Shown: positions 1,311 through 63,440 of the stretch, piece after piece | How positions within the stretch are numbered: the stretch's first letter is position 1 | How the letters are laid out: every line of letters starts with the position of its first letter | DNA from: Branchiostoma floridae | Taxonomy: Eukaryota; Chordata; Leptocardii; Amphioxiformes; Branchiostomatidae | DNA: 64,000 bases | Direction of reading: 5' to 3' | Assembly: GCF_000003815.2 (NCBI RefSeq) | Contig: NC_049981.1 | Span: 11,191,478-11,255,477, forward strand | Program-made: the position numbers and the translations under genes | Notes under the pieces: generated by a model | Database searches by the model: none | The model's input: the letters and a program-made list of their open reading frames with translations, nothing else | What the model was told of the DNA's origin: nothing

Positions 1311-2170
1311 CCTCACACCCCCGACATTTTGTCTGAACTTGACCTCTATTGCAAGGTCATGGAGTGGAGATGAGGTCATAAAACATATGGGAATTGCTGG
1401 AATTTGCACATATCAGAATTACCAGACCAACAGTGACGTGCATATAGACTATAGTGATACTATGGTGGATTAATATACAATTTTAATGGCTTTTCTAATT
1501 GGTAGAATGACCAAAATAAGGACATATACCTCCTTCAAGGTCAAATGAAGGAAAATGGGGTCAAGAGGTTAGGAATGGACTGCTGGTAACAATTTTGTTT
1601 CTTGTTTAAGACCGCTGGGACCAGTGGTAAAACGCACGGTTACCTATTAGTTACTGACCTGGCCTCTTTCTGCTTGACATAAAACGGCCATCACAAGTTA
1701 ACTGTTTTGAATTGGTCAAAGCTGTGTCCGCAAAGAACGCCATTTGATTATTGTTTTAGCCAAATTGTTCAATCACCCATGCAGTGCCATTTTGAAGGAA
1801 TAAATGATTGATTGATTGATTGATTGATTGTATAAATGAATGGATGAATTAAGAATGGATGAATGAATGAACTTGTAATGGAAGCAACAAAATCCTTCTG
1901 GAATGATTCAAACTGAACATCATTTAGATACCGATATTTTGCGAGACCATAGAGACTCAACCAAGCTGTCTTTCAACGGGCGAGAAATAAGAAATGACCC
2001 ATAAACTGCAGTGTAAACGTTGTGAACGTGAGGTACATGCCATCTACACCTGATGCACAAAACCAACGATTGACGACATGTGCACTCGCCCTCACATTGA
2101 CCCGAACCAGACCTATTGACACGTGAACTCACCCTCACATTGACCTGAACCTGACGTTTCTTGACCTTCC
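1250..2170. promoter_or_regulatory. Cluster of AGGTCA/TGACCT half-sites with a 43-bp direct repeat
   Basis: Nuclear-receptor-type half-sites recur: CAAGGTCA at about 1258, 1352 and 1536, GAGGTCAT at 1373, and several TGACC copies at 2096-2165. Within the last group, a segment containing CCTCACATTGACC occurs twice about 43 bp apart (near 2088 and 2131). The sites are seen directly. A regulatory role for the downstream gene is inference, and such short motifs also occur by chance. Confidence 0.25.
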
Positions 2171-3352
2171 ACAGTCGGCCATCTTGTTTGTTTTCATGGC
2201 ATGTCATTCCGGATTACACATGTTTCTCCACTTTGTCACGTGTGTAAAGTTGGGTTAACCTGGCACGGTACCTATTGCTATTTAGATTCCTATTTACTTG
2301 GAACTTGGTTCTGGATAGGGCCCACTGAGCTGAATATCGGATTGATATAAGGCTACCTTTGGGTCTGACTTCTTCCTTTCCAGATTCTTTCTTTTGTTTT
2401 TTTTCTTATCAGGTATCAGGTTACGAGGTATCGAACCCGGACGTTTGCTGTAGTACATTAGAAAGTCGCAAAGGGCCCCAAATCTAATCATTTCGAGGTC
2501 TCATCAAGACCCACTCTCAGACAAAATATCAAGACAATTAAATAGATATAGGTCCCTCTTAAATACATTTCCATTTTTTTTTCTTAACTTTCCTTGGTTT
2601 GTTTTCGGTACATGCTCTTTTCGTTGTGATTTTACTCGCGTCTAGCCCTAAGTAACACATTTTGACGTCTTTAATTGAACAATTTCGGATCTCTTAGAAT
2701 AATTTATCAATTCCAAGTTAAATCAAATTCAACATCAATCAAAGCTGAAGGGCAAGCTATTAAACGACTTGTGATCGTATCAAATATAGCTTCGTTCATG
2801 CCAGCATGCGATCCAAAATCATTTCTCCGCATACCTCCTTCATATAGCAAGGCCAAATGTCATCAGCGATCGCTGGTGACGATAAATAACGCCTCGCCTT
2901 GATCTCGGTTCAAGTGGAGGCTCCGTCTTTGAAGTATGAGACCACAGGAAGTGCTTATTTGACCTTGGACGTGGTGCGTCAAGGGTAACAAGTACCAAAT
3001 TATCAGATCCAGATATTGTTGGGGAGCGAATAATCTGTGCTACTACTATCATTAGTAGGTAAATATGTTGATATAGACATAGATGGAAATATATTGTCGA
3101 AATATATGTTGTGCTATATGGGCTTTTGATAGCACAAAAGACCTATAAATATTAGTGGCAGTCATTAGTAGAAATATCAATAGAATAGACGACTAAGTCC
3201 GAAAGAAACCGTCAGTGCAATCATAGTCAATTTGACAGAATGTAGATAACGATACCCTGGCCTTGTTAATTGCAGACTGGACTAAAGTGATGACACAAAT
3301 AACCAACATACAGCTCAATCGCGACACCTAGTGATGCTTTTGTTCTCTGCAG
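1311..3352. other. Spacer upstream of the SOD-type gene
   Basis: No exon recognised. It contains a (TGAT)n microsatellite, the half-site cluster, and a small stem of TGTGCTAT with ATAGCAC near 3110-3137. The missing first (signal peptide) exon of the SOD-type gene should lie here or left of the window. I found no ATG followed by a hydrophobic stretch and a GT donor in the right phase. Confidence 0.5.
1804..1830. repeat. (TGAT)n microsatellite
   Basis: About six uninterrupted TGAT units, followed by a looser ATGAATGG-type stretch to about 1875. Confidence 0.95.
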
Positions 3353-6300
3353 ATTGTGTGGATGAGAGCAGATTCTGCCCATCGTGGGCAGAGAGAGGGC
3401 ACTGCAACATCAACCCTGGGTACATGTTGAAGAAATGTCGCCTCAGTTGTAGACAGTGCAGCAACCCTCAACAACAACAACTTCAAGAACAACAGAGACA
3501 ACACCAGCAACAGGTGGGGTACCATCGTTTTGTCAACAATGACGACAACATCACTATACGGCAGCTGTTAATGTTCTGTCTAGGCAAGGAGGTTAACCTC
3601 CTTGGTCTAGGACAATAGTTTTTGAAGCAGGCCAATTTCAATGACTGTAAGGGTCAGGCTAATAGTTTCTGTGAAACGGTCGGAGCAATTTAGTTAGGTC
3701 TTATTCATGGAAAGCATTCATTTTGCGTACCATAATCCATTGCGTTTCGCATGCACCATTCACCATTGTGATTGTTCTTATTTTTCAGCAAACAAAAGGC
3801 CCTTCCTACCCTTACCGGCGGTACACGTCCTACTCGCAGGATAACCGCCTGCCACCGCTTTCCAACCCTATGCCCAGTTATGCAAATCAGGCTGTGCCAT
3901 ACACCTCGTACTCAACCAATCAGCATAACCAGCCGGGCTATCCGTACCCTGTATCTAGCTACAGCCAATCAGGGCCCGGGTATCCCAGCCAATCAGGTTC
4001 GAGTTATCCCAGCCAATCAGGACAAAGCTCACCGAGCTCGCATAGGGGGTCAGACTATGACACCACACACCGAGTTTCTAGCTTGATAGGCAGAACAGGA
4101 GTGACCAAGTTACCGGTGACTAGCTCAGCCAGCCGCCGCCCGAGTGTTGACAAGTCAGGAGGGCGGGACAAGTTGGCACGGTTGACAAATCCGCGTCCTT
4201 TGGCATTGACGGCGTCTCAAACGAGTCAAGGTCAGGGGTCCAGAGTGAACACGTACAACAGAACATGGGTTGAGCGTAAGTGAAATAACTTTCCTCTTAT
4301 ACTTTTATGAATTAAAATCAGAAGATGTAAGTTTCAATCACAAATTTGTTCAGCATCATTTTAGAGTAAGTGTGACTGTTCTTTCTTATAAAATGACGAT
4401 CGAATATATACTATGCTTTATTGCCCCTATATTCTATTTTCGTCATTGTAAAGTCGAAAGAAAATCAGTCTCTACATAATGGAAAAGGTTAAACTGTTCT
4501 CCAACTTAAAAATCAAACCTACGGGAATTTTTGATTGAATCACTGAGTCTCCCTGACCCAATCACTCTACGTGGACATATGACTTGACACAGGTGAAGTA
4601 TGACGTCAGCACTAGGTCAAAGGCTCTTGGAAGTCTACATCGCTTCCCGTCACACGTCACTTTTAAGTGTGACGTCACTTTTCCAGACCTGGAGAAGAGT
4701 TAGTGATTCAGTCGAATATTCAATCTTTAATTTTTTATCTCTCATTATTAGTAGAAAGGGAATGTACTCAGATGAATTTTCATGCTAATATTTTACATAA
4801 GTTATTTGATAAAAATTGAATATCACATTTCCCTTTTGCCCCTCAGAGGTAATTGGTCATCAGTTCGAGAGTGAGGAGGCTTTTGTGGAGATGACCAGGT
4901 TCATCCGCCTGCGCGAGAACGTCACCATGCTGTGGAAGTTCTTGGAGAAAATGTCTAGCGAGGAGGCCAGACTGGAGTATATACAGGTTCGTGCAAATCG
5001 GTCGATCCTGACTGTCCCTCACAACTAACTGTTCAACCAATGAGAGAATGGCAATTAACGGTTCGACCAATGAGAGAGTGCATGAGAAGATTTGCATTTT
5101 CCTGTTTTATCTAAGTTTTAATGGGCACAGGCTATGCAATCTGTCTATTGAGGGACTTAAGCTTGTTGTGACACGTGCACCTTGATGTGACATGATATTG
5201 TATTGTGTATAAAACTGTCGGTGTGGCGTAACGGGTAAAGCGATCGACTTGGAACCTAATAGGTCGTGGGGTCGGTACTCGCGCTTCCCGACCTTGTGCC
5301 CTTGGTCAAGGCACTTTATACGATATATCCACCACGACGGTGGATTGACGCCCACCGGGTCTCGCTAATCTGTCAAAGCGTATGTCAAAAGCACATGGAT
5401 TTGGTGCACCAGACAGTGACAACACCTGCATATTTATTTGCCACCAAGAGCTGTAATAAAGATATGTATAAAACAATTTCATTTTAAAGTAAAGTAATGA
5501 GGCCAGTTCTTTAACTCAAAGAAGTGAATTACCGGAGTTTTAGGCCTAGTTACTCGGCCTTCGTCAGCTATCTGACCAAAACGCTGTGGACACGTGATGG
5601 TAGGTAACGTGATGGCTACTTTCTTTCCGCGTTTACAAGCTTTTAATTGTTATTTTCTCCCCCAATCCTTTCCCTCAGACCCGTGAATGTAACTGTGTAG
5701 ACCGGGACCTCTTACCGTGTCCTGAGGAGGAACAAGTCATCCCGAAGGGCGAGTGTTGTCCGATATGTGAAGGTTTGTCCTCAAATATGTTGAAATCTGA
5801 TTCACGTAGTCGTCAGCACACAGCTGTCGTCAGCATATTCGAGTATATTCTATACATTCGTACATATCATTACTTTACATGCAAAGTAATACACGCATTG
5901 AAGTCTATCAATCATTTCCTAATAATTGTAGACAAGACATTCAGTCTTCAATCAATCGATATGATTCTGCATCCATTTTCACACAGAAAGCGGCTACACG
6001 TACGGGCACTGTCACATGCGGCCCAACTTCTTAGAGGACCAGGTCGGCATCAACGGTCACATAGATATCAGGCAAAAGGTAAATCCTATAGCGCCCTCTA
6101 TCAATACATGTTGGCGTTACACCATAGTTTGCCCAGTTATCATTGATTGAAGAAGCATTACTGGCCTGGAGTCCGGCCTTGTTAGATTTGGTCCACCCTC
6201 TAAAACAAAGTAGCGGCCTTCGCGAGCGGACCAAAGACAACGAGGCTGGACTCCAGGCTAAAGCAATACAGCCAACGCATCAAGAAATGAGTTGTAAACA

Positions 6301-9446: not shown

Positions 9447-12400
9447 TTACTCCGAAGGACAGTCCCACAGAGATTCGGGCGCCGGTGGGTCATAGTCATC
9501 AACATTCCTGAAGAAAACGAGAGGGTTACTTTTAGACGAAGGAGGAAAGGCCACATAGCGCACAGGACCAGTTGCATTGTCGATAGCCAATGGCATTTCA
9601 CCCAGGCCCTCAACCGGGTCGGTATGGCGGAGGTATACAATGTGACTTTTGATGGTAGGGACAATAACTCCTCGACCAATCAAACCATACCTCACGAGCA
9701 GCTTGTCTTCTGATTGGCTGAAAGTTATTGTGAAGTTTCCTACCGCGCGGGAGAAGTAGTTTCCTACAAATTCTTTCTTGTCCCGGATGAAGGTGTCGGA
9801 AAGAGGAGCACCCATTGACGCATCTGCTATGTCGAGGTTTTTGTCGTCATGGTTATGTTTATCAGCGGTGTCATTCCTTCGGCGATCGCCAGGGAGAACC
9901 CACGGTGCTGGGTATGTACAGACGTTGTTCATTTCGAGCCAGTGCCTCTCCCCTGAAAAATAAAAACGCTAGCATTGAGAGCAAGTGCGGATTTCGTGAA
10001 CTAGTTTCAAGATTCATTGTGGCCAGACAAAAGCCTACGCTGGCCATATAGGGTGACTTAATTGAAAAAAAGTAGGCCTTTAGAGACGGGGGGCGCCACA
10101 AGCTACTGAAAACGTTCAATCCATTACTTACTGAGTCACATTTGTGAGAAAGCGGTTGTTGTTGTTTTTCTAGCAAAACTTCCGCAAACAAAAAGTGGAT
10201 GATGTGGTCAGGAAAAAACCTGCACTGGCCAATATACAGTCCCTATAGGCCAATACACAGTCCCTATAGACGGGGGCGCCATAGGCTCCCTACAACGTTC
10301 GATCCACTGTATTTGAATCAAAATTCTGAGAAAGTGGTTCCTTGCCTAGAAGGGTATCTGCAGCCAGATAGTGGATGATTTCGTTGATAAGCCCTGAGGT
10401 ATCTCTCCCAGCTGATGGCCCGTTGATCGAGGTAAAAATGCCAACCTGGGCATCAGGGAACAGGGTAACCTGGCTGAAGAACCCCTTGGCGAGACCCTTG
10501 TGGTCTAGCCGTTTGTACCCTAGAAAGAAACACCAACTAAATTATCACTGTTATCCAGTAAGAAGCAATAGTATTGAAAGAAGTTTGCCGTGGGCTTCAG
10601 TTTGGTCAAAAGGTACGTGTTTTAACAGTACGTGTATGAGAATCTGTTTGCTACATGAATGCTTTTCTATGTGCTTGAGAGTGTTTGAGTTTTTGTCTTG
10701 CTACAGGAAAAGGAATGTTGTGTTGCTCATTTCTAATCACTTTTCGAAGGTCTCTTACTATTTATTACATTGAAAATCAGCCATATGCAAACTACACATT
10801 ACCATTGTAATTCCCTACTCTCCACCCCATGCCATAGGCTGTTGTTGTTGACGATGTCGGCCATTTTGGCTTGCCCTTGTTGTTTGCACCCCTTTCTCCA
10901 ATGGTCGTCAGGGGCTTGTGGGTCAGGTGCATCAGCTTCCCGGGTACCAGTTCAGTTCCGTTCAACAGTTTTCCCAGTGTCAGTTGGAAGTTCATATACT
11001 TCGCCATGTCCACAGCATTGGAGAGGATTCCAACGGCGGGTAGGTCTAAGTCAAGGGGTCTATTGCAAACACAAATCAACAAACAACATGTACGTTCACC
11101 GTACCGAGTACGCATGAGCTGCGATATGGTGAAAATATGTCTAAGGTGAAGACCCCTGACTTGCAAACAGTCCTCTTCTTGACCATTGTTCTATTTGCAT
11201 AAAATGTCCAGACGTGATTTCTTTATGTTTCAGGGGCCTACACCTTTTACCCATAATTCCTGTCGCAGCACATGTGTAGTTGGATCGGTGAAAGTGCTTA
11301 TAGCATAACTTTAAGGTAAGTATAAGTTTAGTGAATGCTACACCTGGCCTTTTATCAGCAACATTGTGAAAAAGAGCACCAAATTGCGGGTTTTCTGTCC
11401 TTTTCGTTAAAACATAAGGACTAGCCTGGACTAGTGCTGTCAAAGGTCATCAGTATATAACGTTAGACGTTTGTGCGAAGCATTATATAAAGAATGGAAG
11501 TTAAAATCGACATCCATAATCCAAAACCAGTATAACGATTTTACTGTATGATTTTAGATAGACATGTCTTGCCCACCCAAACTCGGTCAGATTGTGCTCC
11601 AGCGACCTTGTGTGCGGCACGTTGCGGAGTGGGAGGGGGTGTCCCGACCAGGAGCGCAGGGGCGAGCTGGTGCGCATGAAGGGCGGGACGCGGGGCCTTC
11701 TGGGAACGGCCCAGGACGGACCTTTGTACGTCCTGTAGGACACGGCAACCCGCTCCAGACGGACATCTCCTCTCAGAACCTGAACGATAACAGAGAAGAA
11801 AAAAACATTCATACAAAATTGTCCCTGCAGTTCTGGTGCAAGATGTTAGGGGGCCCAAACCAACAGATTTTCTTCCTTGCATCAAAAGCTACTAGTATCT
11901 GTCACCAAAGTATGAAGACCATAGTTTTGCTGCAATACTTACAGTTACACACAAGGGGGCCAAAAATCGACACTGACCCCCTCTCCAACTCCTATCCACA
12001 TACCAAGTATCATTACCATAACCAGGTTCCAATGCTATGCTGATCACATATATTTCACATAAATTGTTCTCGTCTGTCTAAAAGCAAATAATGATTTAAA
12101 AAAAAACAACCTCGGACATAGCGACGCAGTCGTGCGGCAGCTTGAGTGAGATACCCGGTACCGGCCGTACGTACCTCGCTCCAGTACGCCGTCCTGTCCA
12201 TCCCCAGCGGCTCGATGATGTGGTCCCTCAGCAGCTTCTCGAAGCTCTCCCCGCCGATCTTCTCGGCAATGAGTCCGGCCAGCACGTACATCATGTTGTT
12301 ATAGGTGAAGGTAGACCTGAAGGAGCCGGGGTAAGTCTCCTCAAAGTACCGGACGTGCCTGTAGGGCAAAAAGAGGTAGCAAGGTTAGCCTTGCCTTCAC

Positions 12401-15400
12401 AGACTTCTAGCGGGGATGGGTATTCTATGGGGTGGGTTGGGAGCTGGTTCTTTAGTTTCAATGTTAGATAAGGTACTCTAATGCCAGCAAGGGAGTTTCC
12501 TGAATAAGTGAGTTTGCCTAGAAGAGTAGTTTGCCGTGAAAGGGAGTTCCTCCTTGCCAACGTTGAAACTGGCAAACCAGCGCCCCCCCCCCGCCCCTCA
12601 TAAAGCCAGTCCTACTGGAAGTCTTCGAATGATAAGGTGTGATATTTTCAGTTTGATCGCAGTACTACGCCAAAGGCTCCATCCTGAGGCGCCGCCTAAA
12701 ATTCCAACAAAACAAACATCTGTGTAGTAATAACATTCTTGACTGAAATTCACTTTTCGGTTTGAAAGAAGATGTGTACGCTTCACAGGCAGTCACAGTG
12801 GTTGCTGGATACTTGGAATTGAAGGGAAGGCGGCGTTTTACATTGAACCATGCATGCTGACGTCATACCGTGCCAGTTGTTCCCTGGTCATGTTGAGTCC
12901 GACCGGAAACATCTCCATGTAGGTACGCAGTCCAGTGCGCATGGCAAGTAGGTCCGCCAACGTCATTTCCTCCGTCCGAAACCGGTCCCGGAAACGGAAG
13001 TCAGGTCCAAGAATGTCCTAGATCGGGCAAAGCAGTGAAGCATGGTTCTTTTCAAGTACAGTCAAAACTGTTCAAAAGATCACCCAGGGAACCAAAAGAA
13101 TAGTCTGTGCAGACAGGCGGCCACTGGAATGTTATGTGGTAATGAAAAAAAGTCTATGGATCACCAAAATGTGGTCAATGATCACATTGTTAAGGTGGTT
13201 CTTATGTAAAAGCTGCGTCACTTCGATTACAGGTTTGACTGTATCTGTTAATATGCAATTTGGTCTCGCTCTAGTTCGATTTTTCAGTGTACTGGGTGAC
13301 CGCTAATCTTTTTGCGTTCAGGGATTTAACGCTAGAAATTCGGGGACGCAAGTTCACCTTTATTCGCGGGGTATCATATCTTGATTTTTGTCAGGCAGGG
13401 TACATCTCATTGGAATATCATGTCGACGGACAGTGCACGTGACGTGGCAGTTTCAAAATTACTGTTTGAAACAACAGTCCGCAGACGCATATCATTACTA
13501 GATGCCCAATTTTCAAATACATAGATTACCCCCCGCGGAAAAAAGTGAACTGCAGTTACACGCTTCATGCCTTCACGTACCTTGATTTTCGAGCCGAAGT
13601 CGAACCTGGAATCCTTCGCGAACAGGGCGGCGAAGAGAGCGGTGGTGAAGGACTTGGACACCGATCCTATACCGAACATGGTCCGGTCTGTCGCCATCCA
13701 GCGCTTCTTCACATCCGCGTAACCGTAACCTCGGGCAAGGACCGTGACACCATCCTTCACCAGGGCTATGGACATCCCGGGGAATGGTCGGCATGTTCCT
13801 AACTGAAACGGGAATTTTCATTTTAAAGTCAAAGATATATATGGATGAAATGAATCTGACCGGAAATGCAGTTTGTGCTCTCCATAAGGAGCTATAGGCT
13901 AATGTCATATTTCCAAAACGACGTGTCCCGGCCATGAGCGCAGGGGTTTTCCGAAACGGGGCCCGGCCGGGCTGTTTGTAGAAACGAAAAATCATCAACA
14001 TAGTTCATTTCCCAGAAGTGGTCAAATGGCATTGCTTTGAACAAAATCGTTGAATATATCAAATACTTTAGACTCCTGTTACATACTTGGTTGATGGCGT
14101 GGTCCAGACACTGTAGTTTGGCGGCCAGGTGAGGGATCCGGACCGGCACGTTAGGCCACGTCGGCAGCTGGGCAAACGGGAAACACAATAATAAAAGACG
14201 TTGTGAACAGAACAAGACGTACGGATTAGATCTATGACGGACCGCGCGTACATCAACCCAATACGTCATGTCGTACCTGAACTCTTCACTTCAGCATATC
14301 ATTACTCTAAGTCAAATCATCGCGTGTCTATTGCTTACCCTTGGCAGTATATTCAAGTTAAGGTTCTGTTATTTCTGCCAAGGTCAAGAACGGGACCAAA
14401 TGACCTGGGTTTACACATGCAGCTCCTCAAGGAACTTGGCTGGCTATCATCACCTTCATTGAAAGCCAAGACGCTGTGCCAAGAATAACTTCTTAAACTT
14501 AAAGATGTCTTAAACGTTAATGGGGGGGGGGGCTTTGTGGAGAAGACGAGAATACCCAACAGTTTGGGAAACGAGAAAAGAGAACAGTTAAAGTATTGAT
14601 CATGTTTTGAATACACTGCACCACTATGTTGTTGTACACCACATACAGTGTCAAAGCCAAAACATTAAAGGCCCGTGTAAGGAATCCTACATTGGAGATA
14701 CCGAAAAAACACCCAAGTTTAACAACCTCTGAATCTTCACGGCACATGTTCACTTGGATACTCGTTCTCCCTGGACAAAGGCTAAGAGGAAACCAGGACA
14801 CGGAACCAGACTCTGAGTCTTTCGCAAGGGGTATCAAGCGAGGGGTGTCACAGACTTTCTGCAACTTATGATCCACTGGTCACTTAGTCACGTGTTCTAT
14901 CTAGATAACATGACGTCACAGAAACACTGGATTGCACATTTAAATTTCCTGACGGAAATTTGAAACAAATTCCATTATTTTGGTGGTGGAAGTCACAGTT
15001 ACCTCAAAGAACACTGTTTGCCCCACTTTGGCATTTGAACTTGACTTTGACTTCAAACCAAAGCAAACCCAAGCCAAGTCAATGATGTTATCAAAACCAC
15101 ATGTAACATTGACCATCAAGGAAGATATTTGTGACAAGGGTGGGCGGAGCAGAAATGCGTAACCTTCGACTTGAAAAGGGGACATAAAAACCTATTTTTC
15201 AACCTCAAAGTCTTATTGTACCATTAATGAACACTATTTTGTCGGTAAATGTATCAATGAATTCATTGGTCGGAATAGAAGCCAGATATATTGTTCTTGC
15301 TATTTGTACTCGATATATTTCCAAACCAACTGCGAGGAAGTGTTGACTATGACATTTTTACGTCAATTAGTACGTTTCAGCAATAAGAATGATCAGAATA

Positions 15401-35035: not shown

Positions 35036-35334
35036 TTTAAACTTAGAGTTTAGAGTCTCAGGAGCACAAGGTCTCATCAGAACAGAGCTCTCTGGTAATT
35101 CCTTGGAGACTGGCTACTTTGATATGGCTACCAAAGGAGAATGAATGAAGAGAATGGCATTGAAAGACCATCACAATGACCCTGGAAAGACAAAATCCTG
35201 ACATAGATTGAAAACATATCAGGGAAAACTTTCACCTCCTAAGCCTACATGAACAGTGTTGGCGTACAGAATAAATTGAGGGGCACCCAATGGTTTGCCA
35301 TCAAGACATGATATCCATTTGCAAGCTGTATGTT

Positions 35335-35822
35335 TACCTGTGTGTAGATGGTGTTCAGCACCAATGACAAGTATGTTGACCTGTGTGTAGATGGTGTTCA
35401 GCACCAAGGACAGGCATTTTCACCTGTGTGTAGATGGTGTTCAGCACCAAGGAAAGGCATGTTCACCTGTGTGTAGATGGTGTTAAGCACCAAGGAAAGG
35501 CATGTTCACCTGTGTGTAGATGGTGTTCAGCACCAAGGACAGGCATGTTCACCTGTGTGTAGATGGTGTTCAGCACCAAGGACAGGCATGTTCACCTGTG
35601 TGTAGATGGTGTTCAGCACCAAGGACAGGCATGTTCACCTGTGTGTAGATGGTGTTTAGCAGAAGAACAGGTATGTTCACCTGTTTGTAGATGGTGTTCA
35701 GCAGCAAGAACAGGTATGTTCACCTGTTTGTAGATGGTGTTCAGCAGCAAGAACAGGTATGTTCACCTGTGTATAGATGGTTTCCAGCACCAATGACAGA
35801 TATGTTTACCTGTGTGTGGAAA
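35335..35822. repeat. 43-bp minisatellite, 11 units
   Basis: The unit begins GTGTTCAGCACCAAGGACAG, then GCATGTTCACCTGTGTGTAG, then ATG. Unit starts lie at 35351, 35394, 35437, 35480, 35523, 35566, 35609, 35652, 35694, 35737 and 35780: exactly 43 bp apart except one step of 42. Related arrays are at 45.2 and 53 kb. Confidence 0.95.
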
Positions 35823-36634
35823 ACACACATTTCAAAGTCAAATCTGCCAAAAGTTGATAAAATTTGGTGTCTTCAAACAAAGATTGTAACAAGAGCATCT
35901 CTGGTTTTCCAAATTTTGACAGAATCATATTTACGACATGCAAAGTGCATTTAAATGATTCTATGGAAACCTATGAACTGAACTGAACTGAACTATGTGA
36001 ACCCCATGTGATAACTAAGCCCATTTTGCCACACCCGGATTGAACATTATCACAGCCTAGCTATGGCATAATAGCAGTTATAGCCATAGTGTTGTTATGC
36101 ACAAGTAGTGTATCTTGATAAAAGCCTGTCAAGAACTCTTGTATTTGAACATCACATTGACCTGTTGTTCAATCCTCCCACTCAGCATTTGCATAAATCC
36201 ATTGCAGATTGGATTGACTCCAGTGTGACCCATACTTTTTCATGCACAGAATCAAAGTAGGCTGAATGCATACTGATGTTGCCTTTGTATGAACAAGAAA
36301 TCCCTAGAAATGCTCTGGGCTTACCCAGGAGAACATTAAAAGTAGCAAGGCTTGCAGTACTGGATGCATATTATGCACTTTTATCAAGCTGTGCACCTAA
36401 TTGTTTGACTATGGGTGCAACAGTTCACTTAGGTATTTTTGTAAAGTACATAAAGATACATGTTATTATACAAAAGTAGCATATTCTTGACATTCAAAGA
36501 CTTGCAGAAATACAATTGAATACAATTTATTTTTTAACGATCTAGAGGATCATTTCCTCGCTATTAGATTGAAATATTTTTCATGTGATAATTCGGTCGG
36601 GAAGTAATGTTAAAACGTCTTCAAAAAGTGCGAT

Positions 36635-38144: not shown

Positions 38145-39475
38145 ACAAATATGAGACAGAAAGAACAGTCACTCTCAAAATGTTTCACGGACTCGTCAAA
38201 ATCTGGAGGCGTTTAGCTATCAGCCGTGCTCACGACTAGAAATAGTCAGTCTACGACGTAACGTTATCTATCCGATAAAAGCTTACAGGTTTGTAAACAA
38301 ACACATACTTTGAGTGGGAATGTATTTTGAGTCGCATTTCTTGTGGCAATGAGGTTGCTTCTCATTTTAAATCCTGGCGAACTGTACGTAGTTAGTTGCT
38401 CAGCTGTTGTATATTTGTACGCGACCGAAGCTTTAGTCCCGGTTTCGCTAGCAGACACAAGCTGAGACTGCAAAGACTAAAGAGGCACAAACTTCTGCGC
38501 TTCCGCTAGAAAACATCTTCAAATTAATGTACAGCATGGCCTCCTTACTGAGGATAATGTAAGCTAATGCTATCATTTGTGTATAGAAGAAGCGATGGCT
38601 GTTTGCCGCGCTTATTCCACACGCTACAATAATGAACTTTCTCCCCGCTTGCGTTACGCACGCTTGGTACGTGCATCAACTTCAAGTGCCTCTAAGATAT
38701 ATTTCAGTGGCGGGAATACGAACGAAATTCCCTTCAAGTGAAGTGAAGTATGTGTTCTTTAGTCGTGCCGAGTTTCGTCAATGAATTATGTTTCCTTTAT
38801 AAGATACGGGTCTATCAAATGTATATTATTCCCCTAGTCAACCATACCAGCTAGTAGGGACTAACTAAAATGACGTCACGGCGTGTTCCTAATTAGTTCC
38901 AGCAAAGAGCTCAAAGTACACATTTTTATGTCGCTGTTTGAGGGACTTCCAGACGGACAATAGATTTGAAACTTGCATTGACTTTTTCAGAAAAGATCAA
39001 ATTTTTACATTATTGGTAGAAAATGCTACAGACGATTTCATTTCAGTTACACTTTAAATTCAAACATTTGGAATATTGTTTTGAACAAATTATGAAGTTA
39101 ATTTTAGGTTCATGTTTTATGTTTAGGTGTACCTTTCCCCCAAATTATTGTTGAGCTCTGAGCTCAAAATGTTTGCCTCTCCATTGTAGAGTGATAAGTA
39201 CTGGTACTTGTAAACTGAAAGGACTAAGGGGGATATATAAAGTTGGCTTGTTGACAAAAAAAATGTGTCTCTTACAGGCTTTAGTACCCATTAGGGGAAA
39301 GTTATATGAATGAAAACTAATGGTAAATTTTGTGTGTGGAAAATTTATCTGCAAAGTGTAGTCACAGTTTAACAGCTTGTATTGTGTGCAGAAGCTAAGT
39401 AATGACTACCCTGAAATCATAAATTATTCCTTTAATGAGTTACAGTACCGACTACGTTTATGGTCAGGTCTGAAC

Positions 39476-39615
39476 GCGGTTTAATCGCGTGCAAAAGTCG
39501 TGCAAGTCGCGATTACATCTCGTGTAAATCGCGATTAAAACTCGTGCAATTCTCGGGTAAAACGCGATTAGATATGCGTGTACCCGCGTCTGATATGCAT
39601 GAAATCACGTCTAAC
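39476..39615. repeat. Left subterminal repeat zone of the 4.8-kb element
   Basis: It alternates AATCGCG, AAAGTCGTGCAAG, TCGCGATTA, ATCTCGTGTAAAT, CGCGATTAAAA and CTCGTGCAATT. The mirror zone lies at 44104-44240. Such arrays can be transposase-binding sites. Confidence 0.8.
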
Positions 39616-39815
39616 CGCGTTTAGACGATCAATGAATAGATTTCAGACACGCCTCTTCTTTTCATAAACATTTTCTAGACACGCCCGTGCCGTCCAAAGT
39701 TCGGGGTTTGGCAGAAATCGGCTTCTTTTCATATGCAGACCCCCGCGCGGAGGGCGGAGAACGTATCACGCCCAATTTCCCAATTTGTTTCTGAACTAAC
39801 GCATAACCTCGCAGT

Positions 39816-40255
39816 CTAGAACGCACCCGCGCCGCTCCCAACGACGATATTTCTAGAAGATTTCCTGCAATTTTGAGGAACCGACTGTTCCGCTCATGTT
39901 TAAATCTGATACGTGAAAATTAAAGAAAAACAAATAAATTTCCACAAAGGTGTGTTTTTCTTTAGCAGAATATGGCAAAGTATGCTTTTACTGGACCCCG
40001 ATCTTTCGGCGCTGCCGTGGCTAGCGCCAGGGTCACGTACCGGAACAAATCATTTCGAAGATACAAAATGTATGGTGCGACCTCGCACCCGCGCCGCTAC
40101 CTAACCTACCACGTTCTTTCTCGGAAGATTTGCTACAATTTTGAGGAACCGACTGTATAGTGCAAGTTTGAATCTTATACGTACATGACAAGAAAACATC
40201 AAATAAATTGTTTTTTTCCCAAGAATGGCAAGATGTGTTTTTCTAAATCAGAAAA
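39816..40255. repeat. Tandem pair A inside the 4.8-kb element
   Basis: Segment 39816-39962 recurs at 40083-40255: CGCACCCGCGCCGCT, AGATTT-CT-CAATTTTGAGG, AACCGACTGT, TTAAATCTGATACGTG / TTGAATCTTATACGTA, AAATAAATT and GTGTTTTTCT. The open frame that follows (to 40461) has a hydrophobic stretch TLCGIICVLFLLLHYLYAGV, possibly a chance membrane segment. Confidence 0.8.
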
Positions 40256-41951
40256 CATGGAGTAAATTCTGCTTCTGTCTGACCATGCGTGACGAGGACG
40301 GCCCGCTACCGCGGCCAGTGATAGTGTCAGGACCACCCGAAGAAAACCTACCGACTCTATGTGGAATTATTTGTGTCCTATTTCTGTTGTTGCATTATTT
40401 GTACGCTGGTGTAGCGATATCAAATTCGCCCACACTACACGATACTTGCCACTGTAAATAGCTACAATAGTCTGTGTTTGCATTTCTTATCTATCGATGA
40501 AAGTGAAGACAAGTTAATCATGTTCCGAACTGATAGGTAAGTACACTAGTCTTTCAGTTTCAGAATGAACAACAAGGAATGTCCAGTGTAGTCGTACAAA
40601 ATCCTGGCGGTCTCACTACCAAGTAAACAGGCTTCGACCGGCAGATACTACATGTAAGTATCTACATCCGAACTTCAAGCGCCGCCCCGCCTCCGGTGGA
40701 ACGTGACCTGTTTATAAATATTCCAACCTTCCTAAAGTTCGCCACGGCGCGACTACTAGCATATCATATTACATTTAGACGTGTACACGGTTTGTGTGGG
40801 GTCCAGAACGTGGGACAGGTTGTGGAAGATTGGGTTATTTGAGCGCAAATATGAAACTTATATCGTTGCGATAAAATCAACAGCTGTTTTGATTGTTTAG
40901 TGTGTGTAAGTACACGATTGACGTAACTGTTACGGTGCTGGTAAACTTGTAGAAAAATTACATTGTAAACCTCCAGAATTTGGTCTGGTCTGGTCTCACG
41001 TGCTGCTCAATTTGATTGACACATGCACGGTAAGGAGCGGCTTCTTTGAAAGTATGTTCCCACAGAAGAAGGCCACGTTGACTGTTGCAATATTCTGCGT
41101 TTATTTTCTACTCCGATCTAGCCCCGTGTTTAATATGTGGTTATTTTTTCTTGGTTTATCCAAGGGGGTTTTATCAACCTACTTGATTTATCTAACTTTG
41201 TTTTATTTGTATTATTGACAATTTCTAGAGCAGATCTAGACTAATTAAAATACTTCGTAGACTGCACACGCAGCGGTAGCGTACGTCATATTTGAACTTT
41301 GTGGCAATGTCGCAGGGGTGGATGATCTATAAATTCTGTATTCCAAATTCTATAATTCATTTCCCAACTGGTTCATATTAAAGGAGCCACGACCAATGAA
41401 TTAAGAATGTTTTTAAATGTTTAAGTGTATAAAATTTCTTTATTAATTAAAGTTTGTACACGGACATATTCATATTCACGGACAACCTACCGTTTTTCCA
41501 ACATTCGGAACAGATGATGACGATCCGACTGGTGTAGAAGCTGCCAAATGATGATCGATAACATCGGTAGTAAACTTACCTTTCATGTTCCAAAGGCAAT
41601 GATATATCGTGTTTACCTATTTCATTGGTCAAATCCCTCTTCGTAGTATCCCGACCAGCTAAATCTATATATCTATATGTTGCTGAAAAACAACCGTAAA
41701 CGTATAGGCCCTTTTAGTAAAAGAGTGAACCTCCTTGAACAGCGCATAACAGTTGTAGATAAACTGACTAAAAACATGTTCATTTTAGAAACGTAAAATA
41801 CTAGAATTAGAAGTAATGTTACTAACGCTAACGCAACTTTTAACTGAATCAATGACAGGTTAGAAAAACTTGATCACATACTCAACAAGAAAACCAATAA
41901 CTGATGAAGAAATTTTCGGCAAAATAACAATTGTCTGTGTCGAACCAAGAC

Positions 41952-42451
41952 GTATGCCCCTTGAATATGGTTGCGTGGGTCCACTGCCCGACGACCAGGA
42001 ACGTCCGAGGCGGTCAGGAACAGATAGGTCTTGTTGGTCGAGTTGAAACCATGACGATCAGCTGTATGTCCAGGAAACCGGCGGATAGAAATCCGAATCC
42101 TACTTTCCTAGCCTAGAAAATTAGCTACCGATATCTAACTACATAGTAGAAGTTATGTTAGTTACATCAACACAACATTGTTAGAACAGGTACATGTTTG
42201 TTTGAACAGATACGCAGACAAAACACGATTAACAAAAAGATTTAAAAAACACATAAAGTAGAATGTATGCCCTGGAGTATGGTTGCGTCGGTCGACTGCT
42301 CGACGACCAGGATCGTCCGATGGCTGTGTTCCGACCCAAGAGCTCCGTCAGGAACAGGTAAGTCTTGTTTGTCGAGTATGTAACCATGACGATCAGCAGG
42401 CGGATGGAAACCTGAATCCTACTTTCCTAGCCTAGAAAATTAGCTGCCGAT
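41952..42451. repeat. Tandem pair B inside the 4.8-kb element
   Basis: Segment 41952-42133 recurs at 42265-42451: GTATGCCC, TATGGTTGCGT, CGACGACCAGGA, CGTCAGGAACAG-TA and TCTTGTT, ACCATGACGATCAGC, then GAATCCTACTTTCCTAGCC, TAGAAAATTAGCT. On the minus strand both copies can be read as STNKTYLFLT, so an old coding segment is possible. Confidence 0.85.
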
Positions 42452-42659
42452 GCCGAACCAAGGAGTATCAACGTTCCTAGAAATATTAAGTTATGACCAA
42501 ACACAATATCCTTTATTCATATTTAAATACATGCAAAACGGTCAATTTATGCGTATAAATACTAGTAGTCCATTCATGTCAGTGTATAGTCTTCAACCCA
42601 GCAATTCCGTTTATATTAGATGACGATCGTGTTTATGCTGTCAGTCCTTTGTGGGTCCA

Positions 42660-43716
42660 AAAGATTCGAACTTGTATTATTTTATCATATACCTTCCACG
42701 AAAATTAGACGAAAGTAGCCCGCCTAAAAATGTAAATAGGAGACAATTTTTGCCGGCAACCCGCTCGGTTGCCGTTACGACTTTTGTAGTATGCCGTAAA
42801 AAAAATACCACCTTCTTCAAGTTGGAAATGATTATCGACAGACAGTTCACAGAATTCTTACTCAGCGATGTGAGAATGATCGATCCCGGAAAAGTCCCTC
42901 CGATGTTTTGCAAAATTATCTATGCCTTGCGGACGACGCTGGCCGAGCAGTAACGTGTTAAATTTTATCAAAGAATGCACATTTCGTGATAAATGATTAA
43001 TAAAAACACAACAACGCGTTAGTTCTACGCTTCTTCTTGTTGTTACCACTTTGTCAGCGCCGCTTCTGGCTGTGATTGGAGGGAAGTTGATTGGATTTGC
43101 AGCATAATCAGGCAGGCGCTACTTCAGAGGGCTACCGCCGGAGCTGTCGCCATGGTAACCGCACGTCCAGTTGCATTTCCCACGCGCGTCTAGTTATTCC
43201 CAACTCTCTGCCGTGACGTACAGTACAGCTTATACACATAATTTTCGGTGGAATGTAACGCCGTATTTTACGGGGAAATGTGGCGAATCGAACTTGTATC
43301 TCTTTTTGCTGGCCTTCCACTAAAATTATACGAAGATAACCCGCCAAAAACTGTAAGTAGGAGACTATATTCGCCGACAACCCGCTTGTTTCGACGGTTG
43401 ACATCATCGTCTTCCCTTTGAGGCTTACGAAAAAGTTTAGCCGTGAAGACTATTTTCTTTTGCGTAGTTCGGGTTGCTTTCTGGATTCATCATTGACATT
43501 TATTTTATATCAGAAAATATCTATCGGGAGACTGTTTTCTTATCACAATTTCCATACCCAGCGTTGTGAACATGATCGCTGTTGGCAATTTTCCTCCGAT
43601 GTTTTGCAAATCCGTACCCTTTGGACGGTGTTGGATGACGAGCAGTAACGTGTACACGCCTGTTCAAATTTATCGAGAAATGCACATTTCGTGATAAATA
43701 AAAAATCAACAACACA
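42660..43716. repeat. Tandem pair C inside the 4.8-kb element
   Basis: Segment 42660-43017 recurs at 43284-43716: GATTCGAACTTGTAT / GAATCGAACTTGTAT, CCTTCCAC-AAAATTA, CCCGCC-AAAA-TGTAA, TAGGAGAC, CCG-CAACCCGCT, GATGTTTTGCAAA, CGAGCAGTAACGTGT, AAATGCACATTTCGTGATAA, and an AACACAAC tail. Confidence 0.85.
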
Positions 43717-44103
43717 ACACCAGCAAAATGAAAAGTTACTAATCAAGATATAGTATAGAAATTTAACTCAGTCTGAGCAATCGGTACCAGGAGAGAATGT
43801 CGATATATTAATTTGCTGACTGTGAACTTCTTTTACGATCTTAGCTAAAAAGCGTCAGCGGTCCTCGGACAATATTGCCGACACCCGCGGCGCTGTCCAG
43901 CCCCTGTATTATTCACCAAGTATCAACAAATACGTGAAATTGACGACTTACAAGTATCATGCAAATTTACAAAAGTAAACACTGCTCATTAACGAACAAA
44001 ATATTTCGTGGGTGAAATGCCCGACCAAGGGGCGGGGCAGCTGGAACAAAGCCTTTTGTTTTGAGTCGGCGGGGTGCCGGGAGTAAACGCGTTTACAAAC
44101 GAC

Positions 44104-44240
44104 ACGAGATTTTTAATTAGATAGCTACAGCTCATTAGCGCACGCGATTCAATCGCGATCAAATCGCGACTTGCACGACTTTTAATCGCGATTTGCACGA
44201 CTTTTGATCGAGATTAAATCGCGTGTAAATCGCGTGGGAC
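44104..44240. repeat. Right subterminal repeat zone of the 4.8-kb element
   Basis: ACGCGATTCAATCGCGATC, AAATCGCGACTTGCACGAC, TTTTAATCGCGATTTGCACG and ATTAAATCGCGTGTAAATCG: reverse-complement style of the left zone. Confidence 0.8.
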
Positions 44241-44562
44241 CGGACCATAAACGTAGTCGGTACTGTATATGTCACATACAGTACATTTTGTTTGAGAAAT
44301 AGGCCTATTAGTGTATATAAATGTGTATGTTGAGTTGAAAGTGGGCATAGCTGTGCCTAGCATGTGTCAAACTCAAAAGATGTGGAGGGCAATGATTTTG
44401 TGTAGGATTCAGCATTTTAGATATAACCTAAAGAAGTAGGAGTAGGTGTTTGTAGTCAGCTAAGTTTTTAAACATTCAAGGAGTTGTAGGCAAATAGTCC
44501 TATGCAGGAAAAAATTAGATTGATGAATTAATGTCTGTTACTACGATATAACAGATGTACTT

Positions 44563-44828
44563 GTAGCTAAACTGGTAGCAGCCTCACAGTTGAGCTTCTG
44601 GTTCTAATTAGTTGTTAACCAGGAGATCCTAGTTTAATCAAGAGAGGGTCATTTTGGTTGCACATCACCTGTTTTTCAGACGGGGCAGTCCAATTTTTGA
44701 GGAGGTGCCTCAAACACGTTAAAGGGGAAGGGCTAGCAGCCCTTCCTGCAAAATATACCCTGCTACTGAAACAGCAAGGAAACTTGGTGCCCTACATGTA
44801 TGTGCTACTAGGCACCACAAAAATCTTA
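44563..44828 (+). mobile_element. tRNA-derived SINE, nearly full length
   Basis: The head GTAGCTAAACTGGTAGCAGC resembles an A box, with a degenerate B box near 44625 (CTAGTTTAATCAAG). The body reads TTTTGGTTGCACATCACC, GGTGCCTCAAACACG, TTAAAGGGGAAGGGCTAGCA, GCCCTTCCTGCAAAATATAC and AACAGCAAGGAAACTTGG, ending near an A-rich tail. The body wording is that of a common lancelet-type SINE, as I recall it. Confidence 0.65.
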
Positions 44829-45204
44829 ACAAAAAAGACATAGGTCGAAATTTGCTGTGTCAAAGAACATAGTAAATTATCCAGATTTCCACAGAATTGT
44901 GGAAACCTATTGTGGTCCCGGATTTGTCAAGAATTCTGGCTGAGGTCACCAAAAGTCTGTAGGTTTTCTTGAAGTGGACTATCTAGAATTGCATTGTCAG
45001 CCAATTTTGGCTAAAATTAGTATCTCTGATATAGATCAGGATTAGAGGGTTCTTTTCTGGACTGACTTTGTGCAGTCATCAATCAGATGACCTGAAACAT
45101 AACCTCATTAGGTGTGAGTCCACTGATTGGACCCAAGGGAAGAGTCTCAGAGTGCAGAGAGTAGTGAGATGGGAACATCTGAAATCTGGGCACATGTTTG
45201 ATAT

Positions 45205-45575
45205 ACAGAATATGTTCAGCACCAAGGACAAGCATGTTCACCTCACTGTGGATGGTACTCATCATTAAGAACAAGCATGTTTAATCTATCACTGTGTGGG
45301 CAGTGTTCAGCACCAAGGACAGTGTTCAACTGTGCAGATGGTGTTCTGCACCAAGGACAGACATGTTCACCCATGTGTGGATAGTGTTCAGCACCAGGGA
45401 CAAGTGTGTTTAACTGTGTGAATAGTGTTCAGCACCAAGGACAGACATGATCTTGTGTGTGTATGGTATTTGACATCAAGGACAGACATGTTCACCTGTC
45501 TGTAGATAGTGTTCAGTACCAGGGACAGGAGTGTTAACTTGTGTGTACTAGGTAGTGTTTTGTACCAAGGACAGA
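45205..45575. repeat. 43-bp-type minisatellite, second array, degenerate
   Basis: GTGTTCAGCACCAAGGACA-like cores recur about eight times (45213, 45303, 45336, 45388, 45427, 45468, 45510, 45556), joined by CATGTTCACCTGTGTG-type segments. Spacing is less regular than at 35.3 kb. Confidence 0.85.
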
Positions 45576-51862: not shown

Positions 51863-52999
51863 CTTGATATTTGTGGTCAGTGTAACCTAAGATTTTTGGT
51901 ATGTGATAAGGCTTTGGGAAGATGATCATGAAGGTCAAATTTGGACCTCCTAGCAGATGTCCTTGGTACTACAGTAGAAGCTGTGGTTTTCGTATCTTAG
52001 TCGTGGACATTCTATGGTTTTGATTTTTTTATGATAGATAGCTTTCAATGTCAGGAAGAAGTGGTATAGGTTTGTTCCCCAACAGCTTGTTATGATTGTC
52101 AAAAATTTCCATTAATTCAAAATCTATTATGATGCATTTTGAAGGCACTTGATGCAATTTTTCCTTTTAGTCTTGTAACCCTTGCTCCCATGTTGTTGAG
52201 TAAGAACATCAATTTGTTCTAAAAATAGATTGAGGTGGACACAATGACCCCGACAAACATATCAACATGACTTCCGATCCTTACGCTTGCCTTTAAAACC
52301 TTCCAAACCCTTTGCCCTTTGAGGTGCATAAGCCTTGGTATGCAACAAAATGATAGCATAACAGCTTCAAGGACATCTCAAGGGATGTTTCAATAACCTT
52401 TCTAGGAGAAGAAGAAAAATGATGAATGATGAAACTTGTTTAGAATAACCTCACCCAAGTGTAATCATTATGCTAATTTTAATGTGCTTTGCTCTTTGAC
52501 GCACAGAAGCTTAGTCCTGACCTTGGAATGGTTTGGAATGAATATGATAGGTATATTAGGATTTCAAGGACAACGCATCAAGCAGGTTTGGAACTGCAGG
52601 GCTGATTCATTAACCTTGATGATTGGGATAAAAGAACTGCAGCAGCTGTAAATCTTGAAATTTTGCATTTGCCATGAAGGTCCGTTAGCGTAAGATCAGG
52701 ACACCACAAAATAATAGCACCATAAAAGCCTCATTTTCTCTCTTACCACAAAAAGTCGCCACTAAAAATAAATAAATATTCTGTATGAAAAATGCATCTG
52801 GTTAATTGGAAGTCAATCAATCAATGGATAAATCTTTATTCAAATCAGTACATGTATGTTTTCCAGTGTGTGTTTTTTTTTTACAAGTGAAGTGCTGACA
52901 CTTTCTTCTAATATATGACACAGCTTGAAACTCATGAGAGGCCATATGTGAGAGCCTGCAATTGGTGTCTTTCTCAACAGAGGGCACTAGTGAGCTATC

Positions 53000-53056
53000 C
53001 CTGTGTAGATAGTGTTCAGCACCAAGGACAGGAATGTTCACCTGTATGTTTGTGCA

Positions 53057-53110
<54 letters not shown>

Positions 53111-53750
53111 ATATTTTCAGCACAGGTTGTTTCACCTCTGTGGATAGTATTCAGCACTAAGGGCAGGGATATATACCTGTATGGCTCTATGTGAGAGCTT
53201 GCACTTGTTTACTTTGTCAAAAGAGGGCACTAGTGAGCTATCCATGTGTGGATAGTGTTCAGCACTAAGAACAGGCGGCATGTGTACCTGTATGTGTGTG
53301 TGTGTGGATGGTGTTCAGTACCAAGGACAGGTATGTTTACCTCTGTGTGGATGGTGTTCAGCACCAAGGACAGGCATGTACACATGTGTGTGGATATTGT
53401 TCAGCACCAAGGACAGGCATGTACACATGTGTGTGGATGATGTTCCTGCACCAAGGACAGGCTTGTTTACATGTGTGTGGATGATGTTCCTGCACCAAGG
53501 ACAGGCTTGTTTACCTGTGTGTGGATAATGGCCGGCACAAAGGACAGGCATGTGTGTATGTGTGTGTGTGTGTTTGGACAGGCATGTACACATGTGTCTA
53601 GATGGTGTTCAGCACCAAGGACAGGCTTGTTCACATGTGCGTAACTTTGACCTAATTGGAAGTGCAACAATACAACAGTACAATAGACAGCTAGCTTGCT
53701 GATATTGTGACCACATACATCTATAGTATTTAGCACCAAGGATATATCCG

Positions 53751-53801
<51 letters not shown>

Positions 53802-53915
53802 AGTTTGGGTAATGTTTATCACTTTGAACAAGCATGTTCACCTGTGTGTGGATTGTGTTCAGCACCAAGGACAGGCATGTTCACCTTTCTGTGTGGATGG
53901 TGTGTAGCACCAAGT
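53000..53915. repeat. 43-bp-type minisatellite, third array, interleaved with (GT)n
   Basis: GTGTTCAGCACCAAGGACAG cores recur at irregular spacing, with runs of GT at 53058-53108, 53555-53572 and 53753-53802. The GTGTG in the unit's TGTGTGTAG segment is a plausible seed for the GT expansions. Frames on both strands here are repeat by-products. Confidence 0.9.
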
Positions 53916-61869: not shown

Positions 61870-63440
61870 TGCTAGGAAAAGATGACGGAGGGCCAAAGAA
61901 TGAGAGGCTCTTGAAATGGTATTTGTTTGATAGATTCTTTTGAAGCCATTTTTTAGGCTCAGCATAAACATAGTGTTTTACATCTATTTTACTGATGTCA
62001 TCATCTGTTTTGGGCTGGGGGAACGTTGGCTAATCTTGAAAAAATTAAGAAAACAGCCATGATATTGCGAACCTGTAGGATGAGTAATTTTCCTGCTTTG
62101 TAATGTTTTCTCAACATAGATGTGTGCTAGACAAAGATGCCCAAGGCGGCAAGGGCCTACGAACAAAAGGCTGTTGAAATCGTATTTGTTTGATAGATTC
62201 CTTTGAACCCATTGTTTAGCTATAGGCTAAGCATAAACATAGTGTTTTACATCTATGTTACTGATGTCATCATCTGTTTTGGGGCTGAGGGAACATCTAG
62301 GAAATGTGTGCATTGATCGAGCAGGAAACAGCCATGATATTGCTGCGGAAAATGTACTTTTGATCTTGCAAACCTGTAAGGCTAGCAATTTTCCTGCTGT
62401 GTAGTGTTTTCTCAGCATAGATGTGTGCTAGAAAAAGATGCCCAAGGCGGCAAGGGCCTACGAACAAAAGGCTGTTGAAATCGTATTTGTTTGATAGATT
62501 CTTTTGAACCCATTATTTAGCTATAGGCTAAGCATGAACATAGTGTTTTACATCTATGTTACTGATGTCATCATTTGTTTTGGGGGCTGGGGGAACATCT
62601 AGGAAATGTGTACATTTAACGAGAGGGAAACAACCATGATATTGCTGTCGAAAATGTACTTTTGATCTTGGAAACCTGTAGGACTAGCAATTTTCCTGCT
62701 GTGTAACGGTTTGATTAACACAGATGTGTGCTAGAAAAGATGCCAGAGGGCCTACGAACAAAAGACTGTTGAAATGGTATTTATTTGATAGATTCTTTTG
62801 AACCCATTTTTTAGCTATAGGCTAAACATGAACATAGTGTTGTACATCTTTTTTACTGATGTAATCATCTGTTTTGGGGCTGGGGGAACATCTAGGAAAT
62901 GTGTACATTTAACAAGAGGGAAATAACCATGATATTGCTGCGGAAAATGTACTTTTGATCTTGCAAACCTGTAAGGCTAGCAATTTTCCTGCTGTGTAGT
63001 GTTTTCTCAGCATAGATGTGTGCTAGAAAAAGATGCCCAAGGCGGCAAGGGCCTACGAACAAAAGGCTGTTGAAATCGTATTTGTTTGATAGATTCTTTT
63101 GAACCCATTATTTAGCTATAGGCTAAGCATAAACATAGTGTTTTACATCTATGTTACTGATGTCATCATTTGTTTTGGGGGCTGGGGGAACATCTAGAAA
63201 ATGTGTGCATTTAACGAGAGAATAAACAACCATGATATTGCCGCCGAAAATGTACTTTTGATCTTGCAAACCTGTAGGACTAGCAATTTTCCTGCTGTGT
63301 AGCGGTTTGATTAACACACTACGAACAAGAAACTCTTGAAATGGTACTATTTGTTTGATAGATTCTTTTGGAGCCATTTTTACCATAAACATAGTGTTTT
63401 ACATCTATTTTACTGATGTCATCGTCTGTTTTTGATGAAT
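61870..63440. repeat. Tandem array, ~300-bp unit, about five copies
   Basis: The word ACATAGTGTT-TACATCT starts at 61968, 62237, 62538, 62832, 63133 and 63389, giving steps of 269, 301, 294, 301 and 256. Each unit carries TGATGT-ATCATCTGTTTTGG, a GGGGGAAC-TCTAGGAAATG-like block, ACCATGATATTGC, ATGTACTTTTGATCTTG, TTTTCCTGCTGTGTA, GATGTGTGCTAGAAAA and TTTGATAGATTCTTTTGA. Edge units have deletions. The frames on the minus strand repeat with the unit and are not supported as genes. Confidence 0.92.

Follow-up and report, generated by a model that had tools for sequence, protein, structure and literature searches.

Terminal inverted repeats (TIRs) starting with CAGT are typical of the DD34E Tc1-like group of Tc1/mariner transposons, to which the relatives of Sleeping Beauty belong, and a miniature inverted-repeat transposable element (MITE) is a non-coding element with TIRs and a target-site duplication that measures under about 800 bp. 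The subject of this study is a 4,823-bp element at positions 39443-44265 of a 64,000-nucleotide stretch of the amphioxus Branchiostoma floridae genome (contig NC_049981.1, positions 11,191,478 to 11,255,477), hereafter called the window, together with the family of copies to which it belongs. It shares with the DD34E Tc1-like group the TA duplication, the CAGT start of its TIRs and a candidate partner whose transposase has a DDE_3 domain and 34-residue D-E spacing. It differs in that it is 5 kb long and non-coding, has 22-bp subterminal arrays and an apparently composite interior, and has a candidate autonomous element of 16.9 kb with three introns. The element and its family are well bordered, no name for them was found, and their kind is known, namely the non-autonomous Tc1/mariner-type transposon. 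We consider it fairly probable that this is a cut-and-paste transposon of the non-autonomous sort, with a composite interior between Tc1/mariner-type ends, moved by an enzyme like that of the partner element on contig C8, and that its internal duplications came from gap repair.

Transposons with internal tandem repeats that differ among copies, and transposons holding pieces of other elements, have both been published before. In the available extracts of the reports, the Medicago PIF/Harbinger element MtPH-A6-4 carries tandem repeats in its interior whose number differs from copy to copy, which is attributed to abortive gap repair, and it resembles the present family in these repeats and in its nested pieces of other elements, whereas it belongs to another superfamily (3-bp duplication) and has 60-bp units near its ends (PMC2213677). 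For Galileo, of the P superfamily in Drosophila, gap repair with slippage and template switching has been proposed; the element likewise contains tandem repeats and pieces of other transposons, but the repeats lie within very long TIRs and the duplications are of 7 or 8 bp (PMC4168063). Tetris of Drosophila virilis is also a DNA transposon linked to satellite DNA, but is of Foldback type according to the title of its report (PMC4079207), and introns have been described in Tc1-mariner transposases of Sclerotinia (PMC4188875, in extract). A preliminary description of the window had called a pairwise-duplicated interior not a usual layout for a DNA transposon, a claim that is weakened by these printed precedents. 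Our search of the literature on amphioxus elements, mechanism and introns showed no such element among the papers listed, and the family may be catalogued in Repbase.

Borders, copies and coding capacity of the family

The borders given for the element in the preliminary description are clear. Its 23-bp inverted ends at 39443-39465 (+) and 44243-44265 (-), established by end comparison and tested against shuffles, are exact, and a TA stands outside each of them (39441-39442 and 44266-44267), read in the sequence as the target-site duplication and compared across the family. The window contains a 21-mer of the TIR at two places, 39443 (+) and 44265 (-), and none of 100 shuffles contains it. The inverted similarity between the two ends reaches 78% over 104 columns. 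The subtermini hold mirrored 22-bp repeats, which Tandem Repeats Finder (TRF) resolves into a left array at 39493-39563 (+) with a 22-bp period and 3.2 units, and a right array at 44143-44236 (-) with 11- and 22-bp periods. The motif AATCGCGA has eight matches in the window versus 0.64 expected, seven of them inside the two subtermini. The observed/expected ratio of CpG is 1.31, versus 0.70 and 0.31 in the remainder of the window, which fits a recent spread of the family and proves nothing. An Rfam scan of window positions 39000-44800 at E<=1 gave no match, and scans of viral contigs for the TIR and for a 22-bp unit gave 0 matches each.

The genome that we searched with the termini comprises 513 Mb in 431 contigs, the window lying on contig C3, and other copies of the element were recovered from it. 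Using a 138-base query from the left end, at least 28 left (5') ends were found at 91-100% identity among the best 40 of 62 candidates. A genome census of the 20-bp TIR counted 46 exact matches, 5 with one mismatch and 2 with two; 17 rows with three mismatches were excluded because a reversed control gave 51 matches versus 70 in all. At 23 of the 29 family loci fetched (L009-L037) both TIRs stand on one unit, which with the window copy makes 24 copies, and the remaining six (L020, L029, L033, L035, L036, L037) are without one or both TIRs when four mismatches are allowed. TA flanks both sides of 23 of the 24 copies, the last having N on one side, and among four empty-site relatives of L012 two align across the site and two are gapped there. 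The copies yielded a 5,034-bp majority consensus. In an alignment of 21 copies, from which L014, L022 and L028 are omitted owing to their length, 19 are 99.28-99.65% identical to this consensus, indels aside, and the two divergent copies, L032 and L034, are 95.4-95.6% identical. The family is thus a young, multi-copy one. Two copies, L014 and L028, have large internal deletions. The element itself is 5 kb long, and among the 24 copies the 550-bp L028 alone would qualify as a MITE; the TIR of the element is 23 bp and its pairs are internal, unlike the long TIRs containing tandem repeats that define Foldback and Galileo elements. Two young copies, L022 and L030, carry insertions of about 1.5 kb and about 0.6 kb with join overlaps of 10 and 9 bp, which resemble target-site duplications of other elements.

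The family shows no coding signal, and the preliminary description was right that no known transposase is readable in this element. Its longest frame has 109 aa versus a shuffle mean of 112, and 105 of 200 shuffles reach 109. Between the consensus and L032, 5 of 40 indels are multiples of three. None of the 26 frames of at least 60 aa (all 26 scanned) reached a Pfam cutoff, the best match having E 0.0047 and 17.1 bits versus a cutoff of 27, and tblastn with the C8 transposase described below found no match at E<=1 in the window, in L009-L043 or in the consensus. The contexts of the diverged ends L020, L033, L036 and L037, examined with L038-L043, contain no second TIR within 7 mismatches and no match to the C8 transposase, and no autonomous copy was found there. 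A DDE/D transposase encoded by the element, as in Tc1/mariner elements proper, was not found in the family, which is classed as a non-autonomous Tc1/mariner relative because of its ends alone.

Internal arrays and shared blocks

The interior of the window copy contains three pairs of diverged units. For each pair a gapped alignment was scored and compared with those of 200 single-base shuffles; the identities ignore gaps. In array 1 the first unit lies at 39822-40058 (+) and the last, older unit, 77.7% identical to it, at 40084-40354 (+), with a score of 160 versus 34 for the best shuffle. The units of array 2, at 41811-42178 (+) and 42150-42509 (+), are 81.3% identical, their local alignments overlapping by 29 bp (240 versus 42), and those of array 3, at 42663-43013 (+) and 43285-43719 (+), are 77.1% identical (222 versus 45). 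The three decayed pairs of the preliminary description are thus all far above shuffles, but the third is not adjacent, its units being 271 bp apart, and the first, though real, belongs to an array that is present here with two units and in most family copies with three. In the consensus, array 1 consists of two units at 95.5% identity and an older third, 80% identical to the first, and the identities within arrays 2 and 3 are 81% and 77%.

Array states across the copies were called by probe at loci other than L020, L036 and L037. Two young array-1 units are present in 20 of 26 spanning copies and one in the other six; both array-2 units occur in all 24 copies, and both array-3 units in 21 of 24, the misses being L018 (an N run), L032 and L034. 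The preliminary description had allowed that other copies might lack the pairs or that the termini might belong to different elements; both ends stand together on the 24 copies, and the other copies hold the pairs, except L014 and L028, which are deletion derivatives. The single young array-1 unit of the window copy and that of L015 are different mosaics of family units 1 and 2, and L030 is missing 206 bp with different borders again. L019 contains a tandem duplication of 220 bp whose two copies are identical (0 of 220 differences) and which spans the junction of an older 220-bp deletion; L013, L015 and L027 share that deletion with L019, and these four copies cluster with a support of 0.984 in the sequence outside arrays 1 and 2. 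A reading of L019 as a block replacing its neighbour at equal length was dropped in favour of this duplication. There are also a private 217-bp deletion in L021 and a 34-bp duplication in L011. Eight junctions read by eye show microhomology of 0-3 bp, and two of them have filler of 1 or 4 bp.

The origin of the interior was traced by genome searches with consecutive parts of the family consensus, and three blocks proved to be common to other repeats. The first, of 130 bp (consensus 207-336; window 39649-39778, +), occurs with 85-87% identity at no fewer than 10 non-family loci (48 rows; best 40 of 94 candidates). The second (consensus 1328-3282; window 40570-42513, +; left edge approximate) contains array 2, and its pieces, at about 71-91% identity, are collinear at at least four loci (40 of 40 and best 40 of 105 candidates), namely C9:6779033-6781248, C13:1648011-1650233, C5:16430163-16432346 and C1:6287036-6289189. 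Additional array-2 pieces stand at two of these, on C5 and C1; at C1:7670326-7671838 at least four array-2-like units follow in tandem, satellite-like, with a spacing of 316-358 bp at 70-73% identity; and at least five more loci have multiple array-2 pieces (best 40 of 105 candidates). The third block (consensus 3807-4853, 1,047 bp; window 43038-44084, +) contains array 3 unit 2 and matches a large repeat family at 73-76% at at least 10 non-family loci, where 10 of 10 matches end at 4853 and nine begin at 3807-3810 (best 40 of 255 candidates). One of these loci, L047, was read: it has one array-3 unit, 79% and 69% identical in two pieces to family unit 1, and after the end of the block at 4853 the subterminal CGCGATT repeats are absent. 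With L047 as query there were 1,887 candidates, and among the best 40 scored most full copies stop near its base 1734; L047 therefore represents a large repeat that has a right edge of its own.

These blocks match other repeats, and among the matches listed no scored non-family locus has both the 1328-3282 and the 3807-4853 block. A composite interior is supported, a patchwork of blocks that also occur in other repeats elsewhere in the genome. For array 1 and consensus 337-1109 no match was found outside the family (best 40 of 94 candidates), and array 1 appears to have arisen within the family's own line. Array 2 seems to have arrived with a block whose unit number varies in other repeats too, and array 3 would be a unit of a shared block together with a partial second copy. 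The preliminary description had offered local duplication or modules as the source of the layout. Both are right in part: array 1 varies within the family and L019 has its new duplication, and the three blocks, one with array 2 inside it, are shared modules.

Candidate partner on C8 and the competing explanations

Two variant ends with TA outside both stand 16.9 kb apart at C8:19134294-19151199, and among the rows listed in the TIR census they are the sole two with CGACCACG. The left end is 75% identical to that of the family over 141 bp and the right end 81% over 123 bp, and the 22-bp unit AATCGCGATTAAAAGTCGTGCA of the family's right end compares with the similar AAATCGCGATCAAAAGTCGGGT of the C8 left end. 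Between these ends lies a predicted gene on the minus strand with four exons (19139353-19140084, 19138536-19138600, 19138190-19138226 and 19137645-19137839; borders chosen by homology) and GT/AG at its three introns, which encodes an intact 342-aa transposase whose second D and E are separated by 34 residues (DD34E). Pfam DDE_3 is recognized at 60.5 bits (E 2.1e-16, cutoff 28.6), two helix-turn-helix (HTH) families fall below their cutoffs, and the closest solved structure is that of Sleeping Beauty SB100X (E 7.8e-20). All 38 candidates were scored, giving 26 matches in the genome: the C8 exons alone are close, the others being 23-63% identical. Distant Tc1-type matches with intron-like splits lie at C16:1444952-1446050, C3:10277237-10280875 and C17:15791133-15794582, where the pieces share 30-55% identity with the C8 protein and some stops interrupt the C17 ones, and the TIR census has no match near any of the three. 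As an intact Tc1-like transposase between near-identical, TA-flanked ends, the C8 element is the best candidate mover. Judging from these comparisons, the family was probably moved by a Tc1-type enzyme from a larger relative, and the C8 enzyme or a close relative may bind the 22-bp subterminal repeats.

The C8 element has a diverged tandem pair of its own (L044:1122-1355 and 1387-1634; 75% over 251 columns), and the similarity of L044 to the window family is confined to near the ends. A frame resembling a reverse-transcriptase zinc finger lies at L044:2635-2913 (+), with a weak zf-RVT match (E 0.035), and a similar zinc-finger-like frame, seen by eye, at L045:1-219 (+) extends over intron sequence of the C8 gene.

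In the explanation that we prefer, the transposase of the 16.9-kb relative would bind the subterminal repeats and mobilize a family whose interior had been assembled out of older repeat fragments. Excision would leave a gap, and its repair with slippage or template switching would give local tandem duplications and deletions; the altered copy would then spread through the genome. The mixed ages of the duplications, the array changes between near-identical copies and the end-joining-like junctions are as slipping gap repair after excision predicts. A number of points weigh against this account. Ordinary replication slippage would produce similar junctions, the array-1 unit of the window is a mosaic with no single clean crossover, and the single young unit that L032 and L034, the older copies, carry could represent the ancestral state. 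As for the enzyme, the similarity between the C8 element and the family is limited to both ends and a weak 54-bp stretch, the right C8 end has periods of 11 and 44 bp rather than 22 bp, the transposase is a single close copy in the genome, and its predicted exon borders are our reading by homology. The C8 element was read in all but 8,000 bp, and the relatives on C3 and C16, with 48% identical pieces and open frames, could be rival enzymes. The shared blocks, finally, could reflect descent from one larger ancestor rather than joining.

This last possibility is the main rival to a composite interior, and we regard it as rather doubtful: the blocks would never have been joined, the family and the repeats that share them being different deletion derivatives of one larger element. 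It is favoured by the 207-336 loci, of which 8 of the 10 listed also hold pieces of the L047 repeat, with strand and order matching the window element, whereas the lack of a listed outside locus with both large blocks, and the end of the L047 match at 4853 with no subterminal repeats beyond it, speak for joining. It is unlikely, too, that the C8 transposase is part of an element nested inside the 16.9-kb one, the true enzyme of the family being elsewhere or lost. Its single copy, the unread 8,000 bp and the zinc-finger-like frames beside and within the gene, which show that other insertions are present, would suit such nesting; on the other side, inverted matches in the 7 kb that were read do not rise above chance (the best between separate places 16 bp, E 2.4), a Tc1-type enzyme suits the TA sites and TIRs, and no other match in the genome exceeds 63% identity. 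A captured interior, taken from single-copy host DNA, is very unlikely, since most of what remains beyond array 1 and consensus 337-1109, the parts unmatched outside the family among the rows scored, matches other multi-copy repeats. An autonomous element with an unrecognised, intron-split transposase is highly improbable: the short exons of the C8 gene show how such a gene might look, but the negative tblastn, the frame lengths, the indels and the Pfam scan all speak against it. N runs in some copies leave a negligible chance that the pairs are accidents or assembly artefacts, as they recur in copies on many contigs and far exceed shuffles. Within the composite explanation itself, we tentatively envisage as one possibility a chimera of distinct repeat lineages: the ends from a large Tc1-like transposon with introns, a backbone block from an abundant, differently flanked repeat, and an insert with a satellite-like array.

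Neighbouring features and meaning of the case

Elsewhere in the window, pieces of a serine beta-lactamase-like gene (PF00144) lie at 13407-13817 (-), with E 2e-13, and at 10792-11190 (-), with E 1e-4 and under the cutoff. A 43-bp tandem repeat forms three separate blocks at 35287-35875, 45203-45549 and 52940-53895, and a tandem repeat of about 300 bp occupies 61876-63435 in 4-5 copies with spacings of 301 and 294.

The general picture of DNA transposons is unchanged by this family. Its near-identical copies differ in array state and its blocks are traceable to other repeats, which makes a testable history of the odd layout, and the case illustrates how a transposon without genes is put together and remodelled. 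A candidate intron-bearing enzyme can be named for the family, which is young and may still be mobile. If the chimera outlined above is true, non-autonomous transposons of this genome would evolve by swapping ends and blocks, and their arrays would preserve a record of successive repair events.

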